From: Opitutia bacterium
GTDB taxonomy: Bacteria; Verrucomicrobiota; Verrucomicrobiia; Opitutales; Opitutaceae
Assembly: GCA_016187945.1 (NCBI GenBank)
Contig: JACPIT010000005.1
Location: 372,001 to 436,000, forward strand
DNA length: 64,000 bases
Direction of reading: 5' to 3'
Shown here: one piece after another, positions 5,244-57,877 of the stretch
Layout: the number at the start of each line of letters is the position of its first letter
How positions within the stretch are numbered: the first letter of the stretch is position 1
Program-made: the position numbers and the translations under genes
The notes under the pieces: generated by a model
The model's database searches: none
What the model was told of the DNA's origin: nothing
Seen by the model: the letters and a program-made list of their open reading frames with translations, nothing else

Positions 5244-5353
5244 GCGTGGAAGCGTGGTAAATGGCCCGTGGCAGCACGAATACGCAGCACCTCCGCGAAA
5301 GCAACGCTGTGGTTGACCGCGGTGCGCGTGTCGAGCGCGGCGAGCGGTGCACT

Positions 5354-5426
5354 GTAGGAGCGGCTTTACGCCGCGATTGCTGCGATGCGCATGCCGCGTC
5401 CGAATCGCGGCGTAAAGCCGCTCCTG
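5354..5426. repeat. REPIN-like palindrome, long perfect stem
   Basis: The arms GTAGGAGCGGCTTTACGCCG... and ...CGGCGTAAAGCCGCTCCTGC pair over about 25 bp, apart from one base near the tip (GTAG against CTGC). The sequence type GTAGGAGCGGCTT-N-GCCGC strongly resembles REP elements known from gammaproteobacteria. It sits between the kinase and the receiver genes. Confidence 0.85.
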
Positions 5427-5435
5427 CAGCGAGCC

Positions 5436-10710: not shown

Positions 10711-13700
10711 CTACTCGCGGGCGAGGAGGAACTCCAGCGGGAGGTCGATGCGGGCGGACCAGGATTGCTCGTTGTGCGCGGCGCCGGGGAATTTCTTCGT
10801 CAGCCAGTCGCGGCCTTCGGTGTAGCCGAGCGTGCGCAGGGCGGCGTCCATGCGCTGCTGATACGGTTCGTAGGACGCGTCGAGCGTGGCGGTGCCGAAG
10901 TCGAAATAGAGTCGATGCGCGCCGGCATGCGGGAGGTTTTGCGCGAAGAAGTCGATCGCGCAGCCGTCGCCGATGGGCCAATGAGTCGAGACGCAACCGG
11001 CGGCACCGAAGACGGCGGGATGTTCAGCAAGCGCGTAGGCGGAGATGAGGCCGCCCATGCTCGAGCCCATGATGCTCGTGTGCGTGCGGTCGGGGAGCGT
11101 GCGATAGGTGCGGTCGATGAACGGCTTCAATTCCTCGACGAGAAATTTCAGGTAGGCGTCGGACTTGATCTGCGCGGCGGTGAGGCGCGGGCCGTTGGGC
11201 CAGAGCGGGAGTTCCGGAGCGGTGACGGCTTTGCGCGGCATGTATTCGGGCACGCGGTCGTAGCCGTTGTTCCAAACGCCGACGACGATGGCGCCGCGCG
11301 TTTTGCCTGCGGCGATGAGGCGATGCATCGCCTCGTCGATGCCCCACGTGACGCCGCCGTAGCTGAGGTTGGGGTCGAAGAGATTCTGGCCGTCGTGCAT
11401 GTAGAGCACGGGGTAACGCTCTGCGGCGTTTGCGTCGTAGCCGGGCGGGAGCCAGACGTCGACGTGGCGTGCGCCGGCGAATTGCGACGGGAACGCGGCG
11501 TGCCGCACGAGGCGCGCGGTGCCGACGGTGACGTGCGTTTCGCCGCTGAGCGTGGTGCCGGCGAGGTTGTGCACGGCGACGCGGTAGGAGCCGGTGTGCG
11601 CGGTGACGGCGTGCGGGACGGCGTAGGTGGCGGACGTGGCGCCGCGGAGGAGTTCGCCGTCGCGATACCATTGGTATTCGAGATCGCCGGAGCCGGTGGC
11701 GGCGGCGGTGAGTTTCAGCTCGGCACCGAAGGCGACGGAGATTTTGGCGGGCGGTTGGGCGGTGAAGGTCGGGCACTGCGCGCGCGCGATGCCGAACTGC
11801 ACTTTCGCGGAGGCGGGCGCGACGGTGATGCCGCCGACTCGCGCGGCGGCGAGGTGGCCGCGGAGGTCGTTCACGGTCGCGGTGAATTCGAGTTTCTCGT
11901 CGGGCGCGAGGTCGGCGGGCGGCGTCCAGAAAACGCGATATGGCGGGGCATCGTCGGTGCCGAGCAGCTCGACTTGGCCGGGGCGCGAGGCGCGCGTCAT
12001 CGTGAACGTGACTTCGGCCACGCCGTCGGTGTTCGCGACTTCGGCGCGGATTTCGCGGCGCGAGGGGAAGACGAGGTCGTCGATCTCGCGGGAGCCGAAG
12101 GTGAGGTGCGCGCCGGTGGCGGGCGCGACGAGTGCGATCGTGGGCGCGGTGGCGGGAGCGGCGAGCGGGCGCTCGGCGCGCCAGAGGGCGAATTGCAGCG
12201 GGGCGAGCGTGACGCGGGCGGCGCCGTGGGCGTCGGTGGTGAGGTGGCCCGCGACCTCCGGTCGCGGGGTTTCAGACGATGGCGGCAGCTTATCTGCGCC
12301 GCCGGCCGACCCGCGCCCGGAGGTCGCGGGCCAGCTTGAGTCGAAGAGCGGTGCGAGCGTCGCGCCGGCGGGCTGGCTGGTGGGGACGCTGGCGGTGAGC
12401 GTGGCGGTGCGGGAGTTGTTGAAGACGGCGAGGTATTCGGTGCGTTCGCCGCGCTCGAGGCGCGAGAAGGCGAAGAGGCCGGGCTCGGCGGTGGAGCGCA
12501 GAATCATCGCGCCGGTGCGGAGCGCGGCGTGTTCGCGCCGGAGTTGGCCGAGGCGGGCGAAGAGGCGGTAGAACGGGTGCGTCGGGTCGAACTTGTCGTC
12601 GGCGCCGGTGCGGGTGGTGGCGAGGAGCTGGGCGTTTTTGTAGACGGGCGCTTGCGGGGCGAACATGTCCTCGCGGGCCTGCTGGTCGATGCCGCCGGCG
12701 CCGAGCATGCCTTGTTCGTCGCCGTAGTGGAGCGTGGGCATGCCGCGCACGAAATACATCAGGCCGTGGCCGAGGCGCGCGAGGTCGGCGATCCGGTCGA
12801 GCGGCGCGCCGGGGTTTTCCTGGAGCAGGTAGTAGCCCCAGCGGCCGATGTCGTAGTTGCCGAGGAGCGTGATCGACGAGTGGACGTTGCTGTCGTGGTC
12901 CGTGTAGTAATCGTCGCGGAGAAAAAATTCCTCGAGGGCGGCGGCGGGGCCGCCTTGAGCGACGAATTTCCGCGCGGCGCCGGCGAAGGCGAAGTCGGTC
13001 GTCGAATCGACGGGCATGGTGCCGGTGGAGAACTCGCTGAGGTAGGCGACGTCGCCGGCTTCGTTCATGACTTCGCCGAACTGGATGAAGTCGGCGCGGC
13101 CGAGCGCGCGCGCCTGGGCGCGGAGGGCGGGATTGAAGGCCTGCCAGAAGCCGGCGTTGGCGTGGCGCATGGTGTCGATGCGGAAGCCGTCGACGCCCCA
13201 CCCCAGCCATTGACCGAAGACGTCGATGAAGCCGCGGACGACGCGCGGGTGCTCGGTCATGATGTCGTCGAGGCCCATGAAGTCGCCGAGGACGGCGCTC
13301 TCGCCGGTGAAGGTGCTGTTGCCGCGGTTGTGGTAGAGAGTGGGGTCGTTGAGCCAGTCGGGGTTTTTCGCGTGGGCGAGCTCGGGTGCGATCACGGGGC
13401 GGTAGGCGAAGCTGCGCTCGGCGGAGAGCGCGGGGAATTCCGCCTTCGTCGAGGCTGCGGCGGGGTTCGCGTCGAGGGTCGCGCCGTCACGCGGCGGCGC
13501 GGTGGGCGCAGGCGGGAGGCCGTTGTAGGAGGCGGCGCGCTCGTCGAAGGGCTGGCCGGCGGCGTCGCGGGTCGGTGCGGTCTTGGTGTCGACGTAGGTG
13601 TAGTTGCCGCCGGCGTATTTGATGATGTCGCCGGTGTGGTTGACGACGATGTCGAGATAGACGCGGAAACCGCGCGCGTGCGCCTGCTCGATGAAGGTGC

Positions 13701-14151
13701 GGTATTCGGCGTTGGTGCCGAGGTGTGGATCGACGTTCAGGAAATCGAGCGGCCAGTAGCCGTGGTAGCCGGCGGAGCGGTCGGAGGCTTGGACGGCGTT
13801 GTTCTTGTAGGGAGGCGTCGTCCAGATCGTGGAGACGTTCAGGCCCTGGATGTAGTCGAGCTTGCTGGTGAGGCCGGCGAAGTCGCCGCCGTGGTAGTAA
13901 CCGATGCGCGTGGGATCGAAGCCGTTTTCCTCGGGGCCGCCGGGGATGCCGCCGGTGTCGTTCGCCGTGCTGCCGTTGGCGAAGCGGTCCGGCATGAGGA
14001 TGTAGATGGTCTGGCCGGCGCCGGGATGGGTGAAGCGCGGCAGAGCCACCGGTGCGACCGTCTGCGCGCGAGCGCACGGGAACAGAGCGAGAGCGAGCAG
14101 CCAACACGCGGCGCGCGCGCGCCACGGACGAGTCGAGGGGTGAGACATCAT
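10711..14151 (-). CDS. Secreted GH13 alpha-amylase / Ig-like / esterase fusion
   Basis: A 1146-residue secreted protein joining two enzymes. A signal peptide is followed by a GH13 barrel (about 35-640), with QTIYILMPDRFANG, the nucleophile in GVDGFRIDTMRH (Asp326), the acid/base in FGEVMNEAGD (Glu360) and GNYDIGR for the third acidic residue. A beta-rich stretch and an Ig-like domain (about 800-890; YQWYRDGELL, GSYRVAVHN) lead to an esterase-D-like hydrolase with YPVLYMHDGQNLFD and the nucleophile elbow GSSMGG (Ser1031). It probably degrades starch-type glucans, with the esterase removing acyl groups or acting on a linked substrate. A palindromic repeat (12245-12333) lies in frame after the barrel. 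ATG 14151 or 14148 starts the signal peptide and is preceded by CCCTCCCC. It is divergent from the receptor gene at 14538. Confidence 0.92.
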   Translation of the reverse strand: MMSHPSTRPWRARAACWLLALALFPCARAQTVAPVALPRFTHPGAGQTIYILMPDRFANGSTANDTGGIPGGPEENGFDPTRIGYYHGGDFAGLTSKLDYIQGLNVSTIWTTPPYKNNAVQASDRSAGYHGYWPLDFLNVDPHLGTNAEYRTFIEQAHARGFRVYLDIVVNHTGDIIKYAGGNYTYVDTKTAPTRDAAGQPFDERAASYNGLPPAPTAPPRDGATLDANPAAASTKAEFPALSAERSFAYRPVIAPELAHAKNPDWLNDPTLYHNRGNSTFTGESAVLGDFMGLDDIMTEHPRVVRGFIDVFGQWLGWGVDGFRIDTMRHANAGFWQAFNPALRAQARALGRADFIQFGEVMNEAGDVAYLSEFSTGTMPVDSTTDFAFAGAARKFVAQGGPAAALEEFFLRDDYYTDHDSNVHSSITLLGNYDIGRWGYYLLQENPGAPLDRIADLARLGHGLMYFVRGMPTLHYGDEQGMLGAGGIDQQAREDMFAPQAPVYKNAQLLATTRTGADDKFDPTHPFYRLFARLGQLRREHAALRTGAMILRSTAEPGLFAFSRLERGERTEYLAVFNNSRTATLTASVPTSQPAGATLAPLFDSSWPATSGRGSAGGADKLPPSSETPRPEVAGHLTTDAHGAARVTLAPLQFALWRAERPLAAPATAPTIALVAPATGAHLTFGSREIDDLVFPSRREIRAEVANTDGVAEVTFTMTRASRPGQVELLGTDDAPPYRVFWTPPADLAPDEKLEFTATVNDLRGHLAAARVGGITVAPASAKVQFGIARAQCPTFTAQPPAKISVAFGAELKLTAAATGSGDLEYQWYRDGELLRGATSATYAVPHAVTAHTGSYRVAVHNLAGTTLSGETHVTVGTARLVRHAAFPSQFAGARHVDVWLPPGYDANAAERYPVLYMHDGQNLFDPNLSYGGVTWGIDEAMHRLIAAGKTRGAIVVGVWNNGYDRVPEYMPRKAVTAPELPLWPNGPRLTAAQIKSDAYLKFLVEELKPFIDRTYRTLPDRTHTSIMGSSMGGLISAYALAEHPAVFGAAGCVSTHWPIGDGCAIDFFAQNLPHAGAHRLYFDFGTATLDASYEPYQQRMDAALRTLGYTEGRDWLTKKFPGAAHNEQSWSARIDLPLEFLLARE
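12245..12333. repeat. Palindromic repeat inside the amylase-esterase coding sequence
   Basis: Sixteen-base perfect inverted arms (TGGCCCGCGACCTCCG at 12245-12260 and its inverse at 12318-12333) enclose 57 bp, all translated in frame. The encoded segment is Gly/Ser/Pro-rich (SGRGSAGGADKLPPSS and following). Nineteen bases of it (12310-12328) recur inverted inside the GH20 gene at 56399-56417. Confidence 0.85.
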
Positions 14152-14537
14152 GGGGAGGGCGCCACGGTCGCGTGCGGTCGGCGGGCCGTCAAACGGACGA
14201 GCCGGGAGAAGACTTCCAAGGCCGCGAAAAAACTTAGGAGCCGGACGCCGAAAACCGAGCCGCGGAGCGTGCGCGCGCGGTGGGCCGCGGCGACGGCGTG
14301 TGCGGCCGCGGGCGATTTTCAGAGGGGAACGTGCGGATTTTTCGCCGCCGCGACGGACGAGGCGGCGCGCGGGGAGCGCATCTAAGAGTTCTCCGGAGCA
14401 TCTCGGTTTTCTGCGTCGAAAGCCAATCGCGACCGGCGGTGGAGACGATTTCATCGGAACATCCCCTCACGGCGCCCGCTGTTGGCGCACCCCTGTTAAC
14501 CCCACCCTTGCTGCTGACGGATTTTTATCCCCCCACC
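14152..14537. promoter_or_regulatory. Divergent promoter region, amylase-esterase / TonB receptor
   Basis: A 386-bp non-coding gap that must carry the divergent promoters of the starch locus. Both start codons are preceded by pyrimidine tracts (CCCTCCCC before 14151 on the minus strand, TATCCCCCCACC before 14538). I could not find a convincing -35/-10 pair or a palindromic operator, and no transcription factor gene adjoins it. Confidence 0.5.
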
Positions 14538-17498: not shown

Positions 17499-17533
17499 AC
17501 GGCAAGGGTGCTGAGTTTTCGTGCGACACTGCC

Positions 17534-17567
17534 CCTCCGTGCTCTCCGCGTCTTCTGAGTTTCAACC
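17534..17567. repeat. Dispersed C/T-rich repeat ending in TTTCAAC
   Basis: Contains GTGCTCTCCGCGTCTTC and ends TTTCAACCG, matching the element at 10480-10545 and its inverse at 10378. It lies between the possible GTG start at 17521 and the preferred GTG at 17596, which argues against the upstream start. Confidence 0.65.
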
Positions 17568-17595
17568 GCCCTCCTCCGCTCAACCCCGCTTCGCC

Positions 17596-20106
17596 GTGCG
17601 TCTCCTCGTGTGCGCCCTCGCTAGTTCGCTCCTCGTCAGCCACGCCGTCATCCTCGCGGCCGACCAAACCTCGCTGCAACCGATCGGCGCCGTCGCGTCG
17701 ACCGCCCGCACCGTGCAAGGCGTCTCGCTCACCGCCGCCGATGGCTCGACCGTCGCCGTGAGCATTCTCGCGCCGGACCTCGTCCGCGTGCGCACGCTAT
17801 TCGCCGGACAAAAGCCCGCGCTCGATCACTCCTGGGCCATCTCGAAGACCGACTGGCCCGCCACGCCCTTCCAGTTTTCCGAGGACGCCGCCGCCGTCAC
17901 GCTCACGACCGCCGAACTGAAAATCGTCATCGCGCGCGACCCGCTCCTCATCGAATTCCGCGACGCCGCCACCGGCCGCGTGCTCAACGCCGACGCCCGC
18001 CCCATGGCGCGCGATCCGCAAACCGGCGCCGTCGGCACCGCCAAGAAACTTGGCTACGAAGAACACTTCTACGGCCTCGGCGAAAAAGCCGCGCGCCTCG
18101 ACAAGCGCCGCGGCAAGTTCGTCATGTGGACCTCCGACACGCCCGGCTACGTCGAAGGCACCGACCCGATTTATCAGAGCATTCCGTTCTACGTCGGCCT
18201 CGAAGCCGGCGTCGCTTACGGCCTTTTCTACGACAACGCCTGGCGCTCCACCTTCGAGTTCGGCCACCTCACGCAGGAATCGGCCAACTACACCGCCGAC
18301 GGCGGCGAGCTGAACTACTATTTCTTCGCCGGCCCCTCGCTGAAGAAAGTCGTCAGCCGCTACACCGAGCTCACCGGCCGCATGCCGCTGCCGCCGCTCT
18401 GGTCGCTCGGCCACCAGCAGAGCCGCTACAGCTATTATCCCGACAAGCTCGTCGAACACATCGCGCAGCAATACCGCGCGCACGACCTGCCGCTCGACGT
18501 GCTCTACTTGGACATCCACTACATGGACGGCTACCGCGTCTTCACGTGGGACAAGTCGCGCTTCCCCGACCCCGCCGCCATGACGCGCCGCCTCGCCGAG
18601 CAAGGCATCCGCGTCGTCACGATCATCGACCCCGGCGTGAAGCACGAACCCGACGGCCGCGCTGCCGAAGGTAGGGCGGGACCGCTGGGCCCGCCGAGCC
18701 CGTCGCAAAACGCCGCCTCCGCAAACACCGCCTCCGCCCGCTACTCCGTCTACGACGAAGGCGCGAAGCACGACTTCTTCCTCCGCCAGACCGACGGCTC
18801 CGTCTACGTCGGCGAAGTCTGGCCCGGCAAAGCCGTGTTCGTCGACTACACGAAGGAAGACGCGCGCCGCTGGTGGGGCGAGCAACACCGCGCGCTCACC
18901 GACGTCGGCATCGCCGGCATCTGGACCGACATGAACGAGCCCGCCGACTTCCTCGACCCGAGCGGCAAGCGCCACGAAAAAATCCGCTTCGACGACCTCG
19001 GCCAGCACACGCCCTACAACGGCCTGCGAAACACGTTCGCGCTGAACATGACGCGCGCCACCTACGAGGGCCTCCAACGCCTCAAGCCGAACGAGCGCCC
19101 CTTCGTTGTCACGCGCGCCGGCTACGCGGGCATCCAGCGCTACGCCGTGAAGTGGACCGGCGACAACAACGCCACCTTCGCCTCGCTCTCACTCAACGTC
19201 CCGATGTTCGCCTCGCTCGGTCTCAGCGGCGAAGCGTTTGTCGGCGCCGACATCCCGGGCTTCATCGGCCGCGGCGACGGCGAACTGCTCGCGCGCTCGT
19301 ATCAGATCGCGGCCTTCTCGCCGTTCTTCCGCAACCACACCGCGATCGACAGCTACGACAAGGAGCCGTGGCGCTTCGGCCGCACCTACGAGGACATCGC
19401 GCGGAAGTTCATCAAGCTCCGCTACCAGTTCCTGCCGTTCCTCTACACGACGATGGAGGAAGCCTCGCGCACCGGCCTGCCGCTCTTCCGTCCGCTCGTG
19501 CTGAATTTCCAGGACGACGAAAACACCGCGACGATCGACGACCAGTTCATGGTCGGCGACGCGCTGCTCGCCGCGCCCGTCACGCGCGCCGCCCAACGCG
19601 AGCGCGAAGTCTATTTCCCCGCCGGCACCTGGTTCGACTACTGGACCGGCGCGCAACTCGCCGGCGGCGAAACGCGCGTTGTTGCCGCGCCGCTCGATCA
19701 TCTCCCGCTCTACGTGCGCGGCGGCGCGATCGTCCCCTCGACGATCTCGATGAGCCACACCGGCGAAAAGCCGTGGAATCCGCTGCACTTCGACGTCTAT
19801 CCCGACGCGCACGGCGCCGCCACCGGCTCGCTCTACGAAGACGACGGCCTCTCGCCCGCCTACCAAAAAGGCGCGCTGCGCCGCACGACGCTCTCCTACA
19901 CCGACCGCAAGCTCACCCTCGCCGCCGAAGGCGCCTTCCAGCCCGCGGCGCGCACGTTCGAAGTCACCGTGCACGGCGTCGTGGCGAATGCCGTGTTGGT
20001 CGACGGCGTGCCGCTGCCCGCCGACGCGTGGTCGCGCAACGCCGACAATTCCGTCTCGCTCCGCCTCTCCGACAACGGCCACGCCCGCGTCGTCGAACTC
20101 CGCTGA
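17596..20106 (+). CDS. GH31 alpha-glucosidase, exported
   Basis: Releases glucose from the non-reducing ends of alpha-glucans, here probably in the periplasm. The 836 residues include a signal peptide (MRLLVCALASSLLVSHAVILAA), a GH31 beta-rich N-domain, the nucleophile in IWTDMNEP (Asp445) and the acid/base in KWTGDNNATF (Asp523). GTG 17596 is preferred because it directly starts the signal peptide; GTG 17521 would translate a dispersed repeat. Between VKHEPDG and RYSVYDEG there is an extra stretch of about 30 residues (AAEGRAGPLGPPSPS and an Ala/Ser-rich tail) encoded by a palindromic repeat. It is followed by malQ, 218 bp downstream with a REPIN between. Confidence 0.92.
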   Translation: MRLLVCALASSLLVSHAVILAADQTSLQPIGAVASTARTVQGVSLTAADGSTVAVSILAPDLVRVRTLFAGQKPALDHSWAISKTDWPATPFQFSEDAAAVTLTTAELKIVIARDPLLIEFRDAATGRVLNADARPMARDPQTGAVGTAKKLGYEEHFYGLGEKAARLDKRRGKFVMWTSDTPGYVEGTDPIYQSIPFYVGLEAGVAYGLFYDNAWRSTFEFGHLTQESANYTADGGELNYYFFAGPSLKKVVSRYTELTGRMPLPPLWSLGHQQSRYSYYPDKLVEHIAQQYRAHDLPLDVLYLDIHYMDGYRVFTWDKSRFPDPAAMTRRLAEQGIRVVTIIDPGVKHEPDGRAAEGRAGPLGPPSPSQNAASANTASARYSVYDEGAKHDFFLRQTDGSVYVGEVWPGKAVFVDYTKEDARRWWGEQHRALTDVGIAGIWTDMNEPADFLDPSGKRHEKIRFDDLGQHTPYNGLRNTFALNMTRATYEGLQRLKPNERPFVVTRAGYAGIQRYAVKWTGDNNATFASLSLNVPMFASLGLSGEAFVGADIPGFIGRGDGELLARSYQIAAFSPFFRNHTAIDSYDKEPWRFGRTYEDIARKFIKLRYQFLPFLYTTMEEASRTGLPLFRPLVLNFQDDENTATIDDQFMVGDALLAAPVTRAAQREREVYFPAGTWFDYWTGAQLAGGETRVVAAPLDHLPLYVRGGAIVPSTISMSHTGEKPWNPLHFDVYPDAHGAATGSLYEDDGLSPAYQKGALRRTTLSYTDRKLTLAAEGAFQPAARTFEVTVHGVVANAVLVDGVPLPADAWSRNADNSVSLRLSDNGHARVVELR
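18671..18696. repeat. REP-like element inside the GH31 coding sequence
   Basis: Begins GTAGGGCGGGACCGCTGGGC and is translated in frame as part of GRAGPLGPP. All 26 bases are identical to an intergenic copy in the opposite orientation at 33003-33028. It interrupts a loop that in other GH31 enzymes passes directly from the DPGVKHEP segment to YxVYDEG. Confidence 0.9.
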
Positions 20107-20187
20107 ACCCGCTCAATCCGGTTCAACCACTGATTCACCCAGATGCACTCAGATGATCCAAATCGCCGGCTGATCGCGCTGCATGAG

Positions 20188-20259
20188 GTAGGGCGGACCG
20201 GCCCGGTCCGCCGAGATCGTGATGCCGCCTGCGCGGCGGACCGAGCCGGTCCGCCCTAC
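20188..20259. repeat. REPIN-like palindrome between GH31 and malQ
   Basis: Two inverted halves, GTAGGGCGGACCGGCCCGGT... and its partner ending ACCGAGCCGGTCCGCCCTAC, enclose a 20-bp spacer. Each half is itself a palindrome. This is the textbook two-REP arrangement. Confidence 0.9.
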
Positions 20260-20324
20260 CCGGCGGCCCTCCATCCGTATTCCTCTGTGCCCCTCTCTGG
20301 TTCGCAAAACCGGTCCCTCTAAAA

Positions 20325-22126: not shown

Positions 22127-22170
22127 CAGATCTCGCCCATCTGTCGAGCGAACCTGCGCAGCCCTTTGGC

Positions 22171-22244
22171 GTAGCGCCGGTCTCCGACCGGCGTCGTTGG
22201 ATTTTCGCACTCGTTTCGATCCGCCGGTCTGAGACCGGCGCTAC
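22171..22244. repeat. REPIN-like palindrome abutting the SLC45 start
   Basis: GTAGCGCCGGTCTCCGACCG and the inverse ending GGTCTGAGACCGGCGCTAC enclose a spacer. The element ends 5 bp before ATG 22250, so the ribosome-binding region lies inside or against a strong hairpin. Confidence 0.9.
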
Positions 22245-22249
22245 TCCCC

Positions 22250-26762: not shown

Positions 26763-26853
26763 GGCCGGGGGGTGCTGGGTTAGACGCTTCCAGCGAAGAG
26801 CCAATCCGGGGAAACTCAAATGGAATCAGGCGGCGCCGCTTCTCCCCTCCCCT

Positions 26854-26911
26854 GTGGGCAGCGCGCTTGCGCGCGCAGATCCTGGATGGCGCGCGCAAGC
26901 GCGCTGCCCAC
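26854..26911. repeat. Palindrome between AraC gene and nadA
   Basis: GTGGGCAGCGCGCTTGCGCG and its inverse ending CGCGCTGCCCAC lie around a short spacer. It occupies the middle of a divergent intergenic region and is bounded by GTGG/CCAC rather than GTAG/CTAC. Confidence 0.85.
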
Positions 26912-26980
26912 ACACGTGCCCGATTTAAGACGAGCCTCCGCCTTTGACGCGGCGCGCCACTCGCCTACCGTGCGCCTTGA

Positions 26981-28113: not shown

Positions 28114-28959
28114 ATGCTCACGCCCCGCACCGAACACCTCATCGACCTCGCGCTCGAGGAAGACGCCGGCCTTGGCGATATCACGAGCCGCGCCATCTTT
28201 CCGGCAGCGCACTGCAGCCGCGGCGAGATCGACGCCAAGCAGGATCTCGTCCTTTGCGGCCTCGAGGTCGCGGCGCGCGTTTTTGCCAAGGTCGATCCGG
28301 CGCTGAAAACCAAGCTGCTCGCCCGCGACGGCGATCGGGTGAAGAAAGGCGCGATCGTCCTGCGCGTCGAAGGGCCGACGGCCGCGATGCTCACGGCCGA
28401 GCGCACCGCGCTGAATTTTCTCCAACGCCTCTCCGGCATCGCGACGCAGGCGCGCCGCTACGCCGATGCAGTCGCCGGCACGGGCGTGCGCGTCGTCGAC
28501 ACGCGCAAGACGACGCCGGCCTGGCGCGCGCTCGAGAAATACGCCGTGCGCACCGGCGGCTGCTTCAACCACCGCAGCTCGCTCGGCGAGCATGTGCTCA
28601 TTAAGGACAACCACATCGCCGCCGCCGGTTCGCTCACGCGCGCGGTCGAGCTTTGCCGCTCCGCCGCACCGCACGGTGCGAAGATCGAGGTGGAGGCGAA
28701 GACGCTCGCCGAAGTGAAGGAAGCACTGCGCGCGCGGGCCGAGATCGTGCTGCTCGACAACATGACGCCCGAGCAAGTGCGCGCGGCGGTGAAGGAGATC
28801 GCCGGCCGCGCCGTCGTGGAGATTTCCGGCGGCGTGAAATTCGATACGCTCCGCGACTACGCGTTGCCTGGCGTGGACGTCATCAGCATCGGTGCCCTCA
28901 CCCACTCGGCCATCGCGGCCGATCTTAGCCTCGATGTGCAACCAGTTCGGAAAAGGTAG
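28114..28959 (+). CDS. nadC: Nicotinate-nucleotide pyrophosphorylase (quinolinate phosphoribosyltransferase)
   Basis: Converts quinolinate and PRPP to nicotinate mononucleotide, the step after NadA. The 281 residues show ALEEDAGLGDITSRAIFP, ERTALNFLQRLSGIAT, VVDTRKTTPAWRALEKYAV, GGCFNHRSSLGEHVLIKDNH, KIEVEAKTLAEV and VEISGGVKFDTLRDYA, all typical. ATG 28114 is the normal N-terminus and is preceded by TTTCCCTCTTC. The TAG stop is the TAG of a GTAG that begins a REPIN-like palindrome, so the last codon ends within the repeat boundary. Confidence 0.97.
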   Translation: MLTPRTEHLIDLALEEDAGLGDITSRAIFPAAHCSRGEIDAKQDLVLCGLEVAARVFAKVDPALKTKLLARDGDRVKKGAIVLRVEGPTAAMLTAERTALNFLQRLSGIATQARRYADAVAGTGVRVVDTRKTTPAWRALEKYAVRTGGCFNHRSSLGEHVLIKDNHIAAAGSLTRAVELCRSAAPHGAKIEVEAKTLAEVKEALRARAEIVLLDNMTPEQVRAAVKEIAGRAVVEISGGVKFDTLRDYALPGVDVISIGALTHSAIAADLSLDVQPVRKR

Positions 28960-29007
28960 GGCGAATCCTCCGGATGAGCCGCGGCTCGTCGGGACGACTC
29001 GCCCTAC
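28956..29007. repeat. REPIN-like palindrome overlapping the nadC stop codon
   Basis: GTAGGGCGAATCCTCCGG ... ACTCGCCCTAC with internal inverted segments (GAGCCGCGGCTC). Its first four bases, GTAG, include the nadC stop codon. It ends 10 bp before the nadB ATG. Confidence 0.85.
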
Positions 29008-29017
29008 CTCAAAAAGC

Positions 29018-32709: not shown

Positions 32710-33043
32710 GGGTTGGGGGAGAAACGCTACGGGACCGAACTCAAGAGCGCCGGGGTCCAGCGCCACGACGCGTGGACCGTGGCAGGCGCGCAGGCGCGCG
32801 CCAACCGGAATCTGAATTCATGACGCTCGCGGGCGTGCAGGCGCGGAGGGCGGGCATTTCGGGGTGGGCGGGTTGAGGGCGGCGTGTGAGTTTAGCAATC
32901 GGTGCGGCGCGTGGGCATCACTCGTTCGGGGGAGAAGACCTCACGGGAGTCGGCAGAGTATTCGAAAACGGTCGCGACCGCTGGGTGCGCGAAACACGTT
33001 CGCGGCGGGCCCAGCGGTCCCGCCCTACCTCAGACGTAGTGGT
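32710..33043. other. 334-bp gap with REP-like element
   Basis: Between the GH30 stop and the SSS start. No gene is visible. The right third is a REP-like element (32979-33028). The left part is GC-rich and carries the leader of the SSS gene with its pyrimidine tract. Confidence 0.6.
32979..33028. repeat. REP-like element, identical to the GH31 insert
   Basis: GACCGCTGGG near 32978 pairs with CCCAGCGGTC at 33010-33019, and the element ends CGCCCTAC at 33028. Positions 33003-33028 are the exact inverse of 18671-18696, which lies inside the GH31 coding sequence. Confidence 0.9.
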
Positions 33044-34483
33044 TCAGTTGGCCGAGCGGACGTAGGTTTGGATGGCGCGCGCCGGGATCTGGCAGGCGAG
33101 CGCCTCACCGCTGGCGGAGAGTTGGAACGTCGCGGGCGCGTCGGTCTTGTTCATCACAATGGTGACGAGCGAGCCGTCGGGATTCTGAAACGCGATCGAC
33201 TCGAGGCCGGCGGCGCCGCCCCTCGAGGCGACGCGGTGCGCGCCGGGCTTCACGAATTTCGAGAAGTGTCCGATGTAGTAGAACGACGGGCCGTAGCGGA
33301 CTTCCTTGGTGTCCGTATCGATGATGACGGGCGCGTCGCAGAAATTGCCGACGTGGTTCGGGCCGCCGCGCTGGTCGAGGACGATGTTCCAGTCGATGTA
33401 GCCGCCGACCCAGTTCTTAAAGTCGCCGATCATCTGCGTGGCGTAGCCTTCGCCGTGTTCCCAGACGCCGAGTTTGTTGCCGCCTTCCCAGCAGCCTTCG
33501 GTGAAGAGGAGCGGCTTGTCCGGATAACGTGCGTGAACGCGCGAGGAGGCCTCGAAGTCATTGCTGACATACCAGTGCAGGCCGAGGCCCCAGAAGTATT
33601 TCGCGCTCTCGGGGTCGCCGAAGATCGCGTCGGCGCGGGCTTCCATGCGGTCGCGGTTGTGGTCCCAGCCGACGAGCTTCACTTTGCCGAGCAAGCCGGC
33701 CTTTTCGAACGCGGGCCCGAGGTGATTCTTCACGAAGTCACGCTCCTGCTCGGGCGTGAAGAGGCAGGATTCCCAGCGCTGTTTCGCCTCGGGTTCGTTT
33801 TGGATCGTGAAGGCCCAGATGGGGAAGTTTTCCTCCTTGGCCATCGCTTGGACGAACTTCACGTAGAAATTCGCCCACGGCGCGGCGAAGTCCCAACGGA
33901 GCTCGCCGCCGTCATCGGCGCGGACGTTGTTCTTCATCCACGCGGGCGGGCTCCACGGCGAGACGAGGAGGTGGAAGTTGGCGTCGCCGCCGGCGGCTTT
34001 GCGCGCATCCTGTAGGAGCGGCATGAGCCATTTGCGCATCGGCTCGAGCGTGAAGGCGTGGAGATCGTAGTCGTGCGGGACGTCGTCGAGCGTCCAGATG
34101 TTGAGCGAGAAATCGCACGAGTTCATGTGCGTGCGACCGAGTGTGTAGCCGATGCCGTCTTTCGGGTCGTAGTAACGGCGGATGACTTCCATGCGCCGGT
34201 CGGGGGGGAGCTGCGCGAGCACCCAGGCGGACGACTCGGTGAGTGCGCCGCCGAAGCCGATCATTTCCTGGTAGCGCTGCGCCGCGTCGATCTTGAGCGC
34301 GTCGGCGGACGCGGTGGCGGCGGACGCGGTGGCGGCGGGCGCTGGGGCGGCGATGGGCGCGAGGCGGTGAGCGTTATCGCGGGCGGTCTCGATGACCGTC
34401 CAGTGGGCGGCGGAGGCGGAGGTGTGCATGAGAGCGGCGAGCGCGGTTGCGCCCGCAAGGCGGAGGACTGAGTTGGAACGCAT
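33044..34483 (-). CDS. GH30 beta-glucanase / glucosylceramidase-like, exported
   Basis: A retaining glycosidase of 479 residues with a signal peptide (cleavage near ASAA). Family signatures are YQEMIGFGGALTESSAW, GYTLGRTHMNSCDFS, LLVSPWSPPAWMK, the acid/base in TIQNEPEAKQ (Glu230) and the nucleophile in LLFTEGCWEGG (Glu329), followed by a C-terminal beta domain. GH30 subfamilies include beta-1,6-glucanases, beta-glucosidases and glucosylceramidases; the neighbouring GH16 and GH17 enzymes make a beta-1,6-glucan side-chain role plausible. An Ala/Pro linker follows the signal region. ATG 34483 is preceded by TTTCCCCCCTT. It lies downstream of GPH carrier 1. Confidence 0.93.
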   Translation of the reverse strand: MRSNSVLRLAGATALAALMHTSASAAHWTVIETARDNAHRLAPIAAPAPAATASAATASADALKIDAAQRYQEMIGFGGALTESSAWVLAQLPPDRRMEVIRRYYDPKDGIGYTLGRTHMNSCDFSLNIWTLDDVPHDYDLHAFTLEPMRKWLMPLLQDARKAAGGDANFHLLVSPWSPPAWMKNNVRADDGGELRWDFAAPWANFYVKFVQAMAKEENFPIWAFTIQNEPEAKQRWESCLFTPEQERDFVKNHLGPAFEKAGLLGKVKLVGWDHNRDRMEARADAIFGDPESAKYFWGLGLHWYVSNDFEASSRVHARYPDKPLLFTEGCWEGGNKLGVWEHGEGYATQMIGDFKNWVGGYIDWNIVLDQRGGPNHVGNFCDAPVIIDTDTKEVRYGPSFYYIGHFSKFVKPGAHRVASRGGAAGLESIAFQNPDGSLVTIVMNKTDAPATFQLSASGEALACQIPARAIQTYVRSAN

Positions 34484-34628
34484 AAGGGGGGAAATTCGGT
34501 TGTGAGCACCGTCGCCGGCGCCAAGCCCGCATGTCGTTCGCGGCGGCGCCACTCCTCTTTCGAGGGGGCTTTCGACGACGCGCGCGGCGGAGGGAAGGTC
34601 GGCTACGGCAAGGTGAGGAGCGGAGGAT

Positions 34629-40717: not shown

Positions 40718-40739
40718 GATCCCGGCGCGCGGAAACCCT

Positions 40740-40811
40740 GTAGCGGCGGTCTATGACCGCCGAGCGAAAGATGAACACGCGCGCGAGTCGGCGGTCATAG
40801 GCCGCCGCTGC
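40740..40811. repeat. REPIN-like palindrome after LacI 1
   Basis: GTAGCGGCGGTCTATGACCG and an arm GGTCATAGGCCGCCGCTGC enclose a spacer. It lies between the convergent stops of LacI 1 and GH16. Confidence 0.85.
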
Positions 40812-40821
40812 AGAAAGCCGC

Positions 40822-55687: not shown

Positions 55688-57877
55688 ATGAAACTTTCCG
55701 CTCGGTTATTCATGAGCGCTTGCGCCGCCTCTCTCGGAATTTCGTTCGCCTCCGCTGCGCCCGCGCTGATGCCGTGGCCGGCACACGTCGAGTGGCACGA
55801 GGGTGAGCTGCCGATCGCCGCGGAGTTTCGCGTGCGCATCGCCGGCCATGACGATGCGCGGTTGCGCGCCGGCATCGGGCGCGCACTCGACCGGCTCGAG
55901 AAACGCACCGAGCTGAACTTCGGGCCGCGCTATGCGACCGAAGGCGGCACGCTTGTCGTGACGTGCGCCGCGGCCGGCTCGGCGATTCCGCGGCTCGGCG
56001 ACGACGAATCCTACACGCTCGAAGTCCGCAGCGGCAGCGCCGAGTTGCGCTCGCCGAATGTCGTGGGTGCGCTGCGTGGACTGGAGACGTTTTTGCAGTT
56101 GGTGGAGGCGCGGTTCGACGTAGCGCAGGCGTCTCGCCTGCCTGCTTTCGCGGCGGGGTGCGTCGTGATCCGCGACGCGCCGCGTTTCCCGTGGCGCGGA
56201 CTGATGATCGACGTCGCGCGGCACTTTCAGCCGCCGGAAGTGCTGCACCGCAATCTCGACGCCATGGCGGCGGTGAAACTCAACGTTCTCCACCTCCACC
56301 TGACCGACGACCAGGGCTTCCGCATCGAGAGCAAGCGGCACCCCGAGTTACCTGCGGTGAGCGCAGACGGCGCGTCGATTGGCGCGAGCGAGGAGGCTCG
56401 CGACCTCCGGGCGCGGGCAAACCCGTCCGCGGAGCGGCCGGGCCACCATTCGGGCGACGTGCTCACGCAGGAGCAGATCAAGGCGCTGATCGCCGCGGCG
56501 GCCGAACGCGGCATCCGCGTCGTGCCGGAGTTCGACGTGCCGGGTCACACGACCGCGTGGCTCGCGTCGCACCCGGAGATCGCGAGCGCGCCGGGGCCGC
56601 ATGCGGTCGCGCGGCGCTGGGGTGTGCTCGACGACGTGATGGACCCGACGCTCCCGGAGACGCACGCGCTGCTCGAATCGTTTTTCGGCGAGATGGCGGC
56701 GCTGTTTCCCGACGAGTTTTTCCACATCGGCGGCGACGAGAACAACGGCAAGCAGTGGAACGCGAGCGCGCGGATTGCGGCCTTCAAGCGTGAGCGCGGC
56801 CTCGCCACGAACGAGGCGCTGCACGCCTGGTTCAACCAACAGTTGGCGGTGCTGCTCGCGCAGCACGGCAAGCGGCTCGTCGGCTGGGACGAGGTGCTTC
56901 ACCCGGATTTGCCGCGGAGCGCCGTCGTGCATTCCTGGCGCGGCCCGGAGTCGCTCGCGCGCGCGGCGCAGGAGGGCTTCGCCGGAATTTTGTCCGCGGG
57001 CTACTATCTCGACCTGCACTATCCGGCGGCCGATCACTACGCGGCGGACCCGCTGCCGGAAGGACGGGCGGCGACTCCGCTCGCCGCCGAGCGCGACGGC
57101 GCGGAGCGGAGTCCGCGCCCTACCCTCACGCCGGAGCAGGCCGCGCGCGTGCTCGGGGGTGAAGCGGCGATGTGGACCGAGTGGGCGGACGCGCAGAATT
57201 TCGACTTTCGCGTCTGGCCGCGGGCGGTCGCGGTGGCCGAGCGACTCTGGTCGCCGCGCGAGGTGCGCGATGTCGCCGACATGTATCGCCGGCTGGCGCG
57301 GGTGGACGAACTGCTGGTCGAGACCGGCGTGCAGCATCGCGCGTGGCCGCGGTTCGAGGGATTTTCCGCGGAGGACGCGACGGCTTTGCGCGTGCTGGCG
57401 TCGGCGGTCGAGCCGGTGAAGCGCTATCGGCGTCCGCAGATTCAAAAGGGCGGCGCGGATTTTCCGCTGAACGAACTCGCCGACTGGGCGCATTCGGAGA
57501 GCCGGCCGGCGCGGGAGTTCGCCGAGCGGTTGGACCGCTGGGGCGAGTTACCCGCCGCGGAGAAACGCGCCGCGCTCGACGGAGTCTTGGCGCCGCTCGC
57601 AGCGTGGCGCGCGGCGGCGACACAAGTGGCGGCAATGCCGGCGCCAACGGAGTTCGCGGCGGGTCGAAACGAGACGGCGCGGCGATTGGTGACGCTCTGC
57701 GAGACCGCCGGGAAGGCGTTGCGTGCAGTCGCGAACGACGGACGATTCGCGGCGGAAGAAGCCGCTCAAGCGCGCGAGTTGTTAAAGCGAGCCGCGCAGC
57801 CGACGGCGGCCGCGGTGGAGTTTCCGTTTTTGCCGGCGTTGGAGCGGCTGGTCGCGGCGGCGGAGGTGGCACGATGA
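55688..57877 (+). CDS. GH20 beta-N-acetylhexosaminidase, exported
   Basis: Removes terminal beta-linked GlcNAc or GalNAc by substrate-assisted catalysis. The 729 residues have a signal peptide (cleavage near FASA), an N-terminal GH20b-type domain, then RFPWRGLMIDVARHF, HLHLTDDQGFRIESK, PEFDVPGHTTAWLASHPEI, the catalytic pair in HIGGDENNGK (Asp350-Glu351) and EAAMWTEWADA. It is overlapped by 4 bp by the NagX-like gene downstream. Three palindromic repeat segments lie in frame (56120, 56399 and 57073 regions), each encoding residues that interrupt otherwise conserved family spacing. Confidence 0.94.
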   Translation: MKLSARLFMSACAASLGISFASAAPALMPWPAHVEWHEGELPIAAEFRVRIAGHDDARLRAGIGRALDRLEKRTELNFGPRYATEGGTLVVTCAAAGSAIPRLGDDESYTLEVRSGSAELRSPNVVGALRGLETFLQLVEARFDVAQASRLPAFAAGCVVIRDAPRFPWRGLMIDVARHFQPPEVLHRNLDAMAAVKLNVLHLHLTDDQGFRIESKRHPELPAVSADGASIGASEEARDLRARANPSAERPGHHSGDVLTQEQIKALIAAAAERGIRVVPEFDVPGHTTAWLASHPEIASAPGPHAVARRWGVLDDVMDPTLPETHALLESFFGEMAALFPDEFFHIGGDENNGKQWNASARIAAFKRERGLATNEALHAWFNQQLAVLLAQHGKRLVGWDEVLHPDLPRSAVVHSWRGPESLARAAQEGFAGILSAGYYLDLHYPAADHYAADPLPEGRAATPLAAERDGAERSPRPTLTPEQAARVLGGEAAMWTEWADAQNFDFRVWPRAVAVAERLWSPREVRDVADMYRRLARVDELLVETGVQHRAWPRFEGFSAEDATALRVLASAVEPVKRYRRPQIQKGGADFPLNELADWAHSESRPAREFAERLDRWGELPAAEKRAALDGVLAPLAAWRAAATQVAAMPAPTEFAAGRNETARRLVTLCETAGKALRAVANDGRFAAEEAAQARELLKRAAQPTAAAVEFPFLPALERLVAAAEVAR
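56120..56141. repeat. REP-like element in GH20 coding sequence (first)
   Basis: GTAG followed by the palindrome GCAGGCG-tct-CGCCTGC, translated as VAQASRLPA just before the VVIRDAPRFPWRG segment. Confidence 0.8.
56399..56450. repeat. REP-like element in GH20 coding sequence (second)
   Basis: CGCGACCTCCGGGCGCGGG (56399-56417) is identical, inverted, to 12310-12328 inside the amylase-esterase gene. The segment is translated as RDLRARANPSAERPGHHSGD, a stretch not expected between the DDQGFRIES and QIKALIAAAAERG segments of GH20. Confidence 0.8.
57073..57124. repeat. REP-like element in GH20 coding sequence (third)
   Basis: The arms GACTCCGCTC and GAGCGGAGTC are perfect over 10 bp and are followed by GCGCCCTACC, the inverse of a GGTAGGGCGC tip. 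It is translated as about 20 residues (RAATPLAAERDGAERSPRP) before LTPEQAARVLGGEAAMW. Confidence 0.8.

Follow-up and report, generated by a model that had tools for sequence, protein, structure and literature searches.

A GH31 alpha-glucosidase-like gene of the source genome (G000; 5.47 Mb, 16 contigs, assembly 95.7% complete) carries, within its reading frame, a copy of a repeat that is abundant elsewhere in the same genome. We consider it very probable that this repeat is a GTAG-type REP, i.e. half of a REPIN, that a transposase activity of the RAYT/TnpA-REP type placed in a loop of the GH31 protein tolerant of length changes, where it is translated as GRAGPLGPP. The identity of the repeat as a REP and its in-frame insertion are established at the sequence level by the genomic copies and by comparison with six relatives (G001, G002, G005, G006, G007 and G018). 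The case offers a clean before/after view of a non-coding mobile element that became protein sequence in a conserved enzyme. Coordinates refer to the window, the 64-kb stretch of G000 that was analysed.

The repeat family

The preliminary description of this DNA had noted two identical, mutually inverted 26-bp copies; identity and inversion were confirmed, whereas the coordinates given for them (18671-18696 and 33003-33028) were each off by one. The 26-mer GGTAGGGCGGGACCGCTGGGCCCGCC, whose REP family we call class A, occurs exactly at 18670-18695 (plus strand) and 33004-33029 (minus strand), and it had no match in 100 shuffles of the window. The genome-wide search that had been proposed found 31 exact copies in the 5.47 Mb of G000, and 85 class-A cores when a G/C variant and at most 3 mismatches were allowed; the reversed sequence, used as a control across the genome, gave 0 in both searches. 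The second copy of the window is intergenic, as had been described:

33004-33029, minus strand: identical class-A REP, intergenic, 14 bp past the stop codon of a GH30 gene (33044-34552, minus strand)
32970-32990, plus strand: degenerate inverted partner of the REP at 33004 (inverted repeat I15; locus L018)

The GH31 copy and every perfect copy have GTAG at one foot (GGTAGGGCG...). The 26-mer folds into an imperfect hairpin, GGCGGG.CC...GG.CCCGCC (-9.8 kcal/mol, z -2.8), and is thus a short imperfect palindrome in the 20-40 bp range of GTAG-type REPs. A second form with paired G/C changes (GGCGCG...CGCGCC, GTAGGGCGCGACCGCTGGGCGCGCC) was also common in the core search of G000. In most cases a class-A copy forms the left half of an inverted REP pair whose members are separated by a spacer of about 10-30 nt; for one such pair of 74 nt the folding energy is -43.9 kcal/mol (z -9.8). 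Most members of the family therefore have the two inverted REPs and the spacer that define a REPIN; the GH31 copy does not, it is a single REP. Class A is a high-copy, mostly intergenic family; of 123 elements, some 14-16 are in frame within genes. A stop codon immediately precedes 22 of 123 distinct perfect copies, and REPs hugging gene ends are described in the main text of PMC3733652. The GTAG foot, the hairpin, the inverted pairs and, in two sister genomes, a RAYT gene with these REPs on its flanks (see below) are features of GTAG-REPs and REPINs as set out in the text of PMC3733652, PMC3116915 and PMC8266576. On these sequence features, the repeat is a GTAG-footed REP hairpin that is usually paired as a REPIN.

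The GH31 gene and its insert

The host gene and the parts of the insert are as follows:

17521-20106, plus strand: GH31 alpha-glucosidase-like gene, 861 amino acids, annotated start GTG (Pfam PF01055, E=2.6e-113; PF13802, PF21365, PF17137)
18658-18738, plus strand: net insertion RAAE-GRAGPLGPP-SPSQNAASANTASA, 81 bp or 27 codons, residues 380-406 (codon alignment with G001, G007 and G002)
18670-18695, plus strand: class-A GTAG-REP read in frame as GRAGPLGPP, residues 384-392 (31 exact genome copies; hairpin)
18696-18738, plus strand: Ala/Ser-rich rest of the insert (28 of 43 bases identical to G005)

Pfam thus bore out the earlier assignment of the host to GH31, as the translation did the peptide GRAGPLGPP encoded by the REP. 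Besides the PF01055 match, D470 and D548, which we take to be the two catalytic Asp residues of the GH31 TIM barrel, are invariant in the family alignment. The extra stretch is real, its net length being 27 residues (380-406) rather than about 30. The recognisable REP makes up 9 of these 27 residues; the element does not account for the 4 residues ahead of it and the 14 behind it, which are mostly small, and no inverted partner REP was recognisable in the 3' half of the insert.

The dN/dS of the gene against its relatives is 0.24-0.34 and, as judged from these alignments, the gene is under purifying selection. The open frame, the invariant D470 and D548 and the dN/dS values agree with the earlier view that a repeat had entered a coding frame and been tolerated; tolerance of the REP in an intact GH31 enzyme appears well supported. 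In the AlphaFold model (mean pLDDT 87.7) the insert lies between a barrel strand (372-374) and a helix (409-416). Because residues 383-405 are the sole internal stretch with pLDDT below 50 (the N-terminus is also low), the model places the insert in a flexible loop predicted to be disordered. The preliminary description had spoken of an enzyme surface loop; the predicted disorder fits this, and the word surface would follow from that disorder.

Relatives and origin of the insert

At the insert site G001, G007, G002 and G018 read KYQPEGGY or KFQPEGGY and have no insert. G000 reads KHEPDG-RAAE-GRAGPLGPP-SPSQNAASANTASA-RYSVYDEG, with a net gain of 27 codons. The segment is, as had been anticipated, missing from nearly all relatives; G005, a second species, shares it at the same codon with an identical 26-mer and with different bases beyond it. 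The homologous segment is a plain stretch of 28 residues without insert in 62 of 93 GH31 rows (some genomes being represented twice), and conservation of the insert across GH31 was therefore rejected. These rows agree with the earlier statement that GH31 enzymes normally run straight through at this place. In Opitutaceae, in which most of the longer segments were found, the loop varies in length, from 30 to 57 residues, and non-REP extensions occur too.

The gene tree built with FastTree was (((G001,G007),G000),G005), with G002 outside. Sites shared by G000 with G005 are enriched around the insert (4/30 vs. 24/2436, p=3e-4). One gain before the split of G005 and G000 followed by one loss in G001/G007, and one gain followed by one transfer, fit these sequences equally well. 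We did not adopt the idea that a donor resembling G005 had clearly and recently contributed a recombination tract: the excess of shared sites is present, yet such a tract is not needed because vertical inheritance with a single loss is compatible with the gene tree.

The REP may also have entered the loop separately in G000 and G005. The 26-mer is identical in the two genomes, yet the insert bases beside it agree at 28 of 43 positions on the 3' side and at 23 of 27 on the 5' side, and in other genes one site has been taken by different REP classes (see below). On the other hand, G000 and G005 share the codon position, HEPDGRAAE before and RYSVYDEG after the REP, which the relatives without the insert do not have, and the bases shared next to the insert argue against two fully independent insertions. 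We regard separate entry as unlikely. The preferred history is a single origin, which would have taken place before or near the split of G000 and G005; thereafter the insert would have been lost or replaced in G001/G007, or a short tract would have been transferred laterally.

In the GH31 gene of G007 (L039), which lacks the class-A insert, a different loop (alignment columns 717-739) carries another REPIN in frame (GTGGGAGCGAGCTTGCTTGCGAC...).

REPs in other genes

Among 123 REP elements in the loci fetched from G000, G001 and G005 (nearly all copies of G000, part of those of G001 and G005), a GC3-frame scan flagged 16, including the GH31 pair; the in-frame calls were based on a GC3 criterion set by us and then on protein-family matches for ten proteins, and at one flagged locus with two overlapping frames only the conserved frame is meant. 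Besides GH31, about a dozen class-A copies were in frame in other conserved genes of these three genomes. The hosts include CusA/CzcA, IcmF, MenD, IspG, HrpA (in three places), NuoM, a D-2-hydroxyglutarate dehydrogenase-like protein (D2HGDH), a DUF3516 helicase and a GH9 protein. Two further glycoside hydrolase genes of the window contain REPIN-like palindromes:

12242-12336, minus strand: REPIN-like palindrome GGTGGCCCGCGACCTCCGG... in the open frame of a GH13 alpha-amylase gene (10711-14454, minus strand; inverted repeat I4, translation, Pfam)
57059-57127, plus strand: REPIN-like palindrome in frame in a GH20 hexosaminidase gene (55688-57877; inverted repeat I10, alignment)

The GH13 palindrome is read in frame and separates the amylase domain from an Ig-like domain. 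That of GH20 adds about 18 residues, and the G001 and G007 orthologues are without it. From the GH31 gene, the other class-A hosts and the GH13 and GH20 cases we conclude that, to judge by reading frames, in-frame REPs are frequent in this genus, which thus has many parallel cases of empty, occupied and differently occupied orthologues. The GH20 gene has a second insert, of 28 residues (VSADGASIG...GHHSGD), resembling a decayed REP of the GGTGGCCCGCGACCTCCGG type.

Shared sites and conserved arms

Where G001 or G005 has a class-A REP, the G000 orthologue often has another REP family within a few bases: GTAGGGCGAATCCTCCGG... in CusA, GTAGGAGCGGCTTTACGCCGC... in IcmF, GTAGGGCGGACCGGCC... in MenD and GTAGGGCGGGGTCGCC... 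at the first HrpA site. The second HrpA site is occupied by class B in G000 and G001, by class A in G005 and by a class-A-like relic in G007; at the D2HGDH site G000 and G007 both have a degenerate palindrome, GTGGGC..., and further palindromes occur at the NuoM and DUF3516 sites. In CusA (L268, L269, L270) and at the second HrpA site (HrpA loci L344-L347) the different classes start after an identical codon across species. G007 has no REP at the CusA site and at the first HrpA site. Six of eight G000 REPs coincide in this way, with a rough p of 2.5e-8 if sites are spread evenly over the proteins and of 0.014 if 10% of each protein tolerates inserts; the estimate is exploratory because the choice of the eight, the tolerance window and the class assignments were ours and were made post hoc. 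These coincidences suggest recurrent docking sites or in-place replacement at shared coding sites; possible causes are a tolerance of the loops for inserts, a preference for certain targets and replacement in place. In the literature on REP insertion hot spots within genes we found only PMC3733652, in whose main text Xanthomonas recB is the one gene noted to carry different REPs at roughly the same place.

In the three inserts shared between species (GH31 in G000/G005; CusA and IcmF in G001/G005) 127 of 129 bases of the REP arms are identical. In the same genes the figures are 1651/1878 for the flanks (Fisher p=4e-5 against the arms) and 492/624 for third codon positions (Fisher p=7e-10); the spacers of the two paired inserts (CusA, IcmF) are identical at 30 of 34 positions, which like the figure for the flanks amounts to 88%. 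This suggests that the arms are kept more identical than their surroundings, a reading no stronger than suggestive because the bases are non-independent and come from three genes.

Such conservation could reflect domestication of the insert, with selection acting on the hairpin or on its peptide for mRNA structure, for an enzyme property or for transposase binding. However, gene conversion among REP copies would give an equal signal, the positions are non-independent and from three genes, and the insert is absent in relatives; we consider domestication rather improbable. It is also conceivable, although we put it forward only tentatively, that certain protein loops are standing REP docking sites, where families succeed or replace one another at the same nucleotide and where the intragenic arms are kept intact as DNA, through gene conversion or through the transposase acting repeatedly, and not via protein selection.

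That the GH31 loop is an ordinary length-variable linker grown by slippage, with a coincidental match to the REP, is highly improbable. The Opitutaceae loop does vary in length without REPs and the insert is partly low-complexity Ala/Ser, but 26 of 26 bases are identical to a 31-copy family, where zero matches are expected by chance; slippage or coincidence is refuted for the 26-bp core and possible for the 55 bp flanking it. Misassembly of a repeat into the gene, which such repeats are able to cause, can practically be dismissed, as the insert is present in frame in two independent assemblies of different species, with diverged neighbouring bases.

RAYT genes and the proposed mechanism

In the sister genomes G001 (L091) and G006 (L092) a Y1/RAYT gene is flanked by class-A REPs; it has an oxidoreductase gene on one side and an lpxB-like gene on the other (names assigned from translations). 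A class-A-flanked RAYT was not found in the G000 assembly, which is 95.7% complete. The best G000 RAYT (L098; G000:C11:5711-5908) shares 51% identity with the G001 RAYT of class A and has GTAGGGCGAGTCGTCCCGACGAGCCG as its flanking REP class.

By analogy, a RAYT would be the agent of the GH31 insertion. RAYT/TnpA-REP type activity would have placed the REP in the length-tolerant loop; the reading frame in which the TAG of the foot is not a codon would have stayed open, so that the REP would be read as GRAGPLGPP in the flexible loop between the strand and the helix. Expression and activity of the GH31 protein are inferred, as is near neutrality of the insert.

Relation to known elements

The principle of in-frame REPs is not new: in 2013 Di Nocera et al. 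described GTAG-REPs within genes, above all for Opitutus terrae, in the main text of PMC3733652. The elements described there share with ours the GTAG foot, the short hairpin, the dimers, the association with RAYT and the extra residues in open frames. GH31 is not named in that main text, and relative to it the empty-site comparison, the arm conservation and the occupation of the same site by different classes across species are new. REPINs with their RAYT (Bertels and Rainey 2011, PMC3116915) have the same inverted REP pairs with a spacer and the same near-identical copies; Pseudomonas REPINs are, however, almost wholly extragenic, whereas the GH31 copy is an intragenic single REP. Rickettsia palindromic elements (RPE) resemble our case in being palindromic repeats in frame in genes of functional proteins. 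According to the main text of PMC3733652, elements of the RPE-4/RPE-6 type bear a CGTC tag, and no transposase dedicated to them is known; their sequence is unrelated to class A, which lacks the CGTC tag and has GTAG at the foot, and class A was therefore rejected as an RPE. Cases like the present one allow tests of REP insertion sites, of in-place replacement and of hairpin identity amid changing neighbours.

Other palindromes in the window

One more REPIN lies next to the GH31 gene:

20187-20260, strand not assigned: REPIN of class D, another GTAG class, between the GH31 and GH77 genes (inverted repeat I3, 96%; fold -38 kcal/mol, z -7.7)

Together with this element, the palindromes at 5352-5429, 22168-22247, 26853-26912, 28954-29009 and 40738-40813 appear to represent at least five more REP-like families in the 64 kb, with GTAG or GTGG feet.
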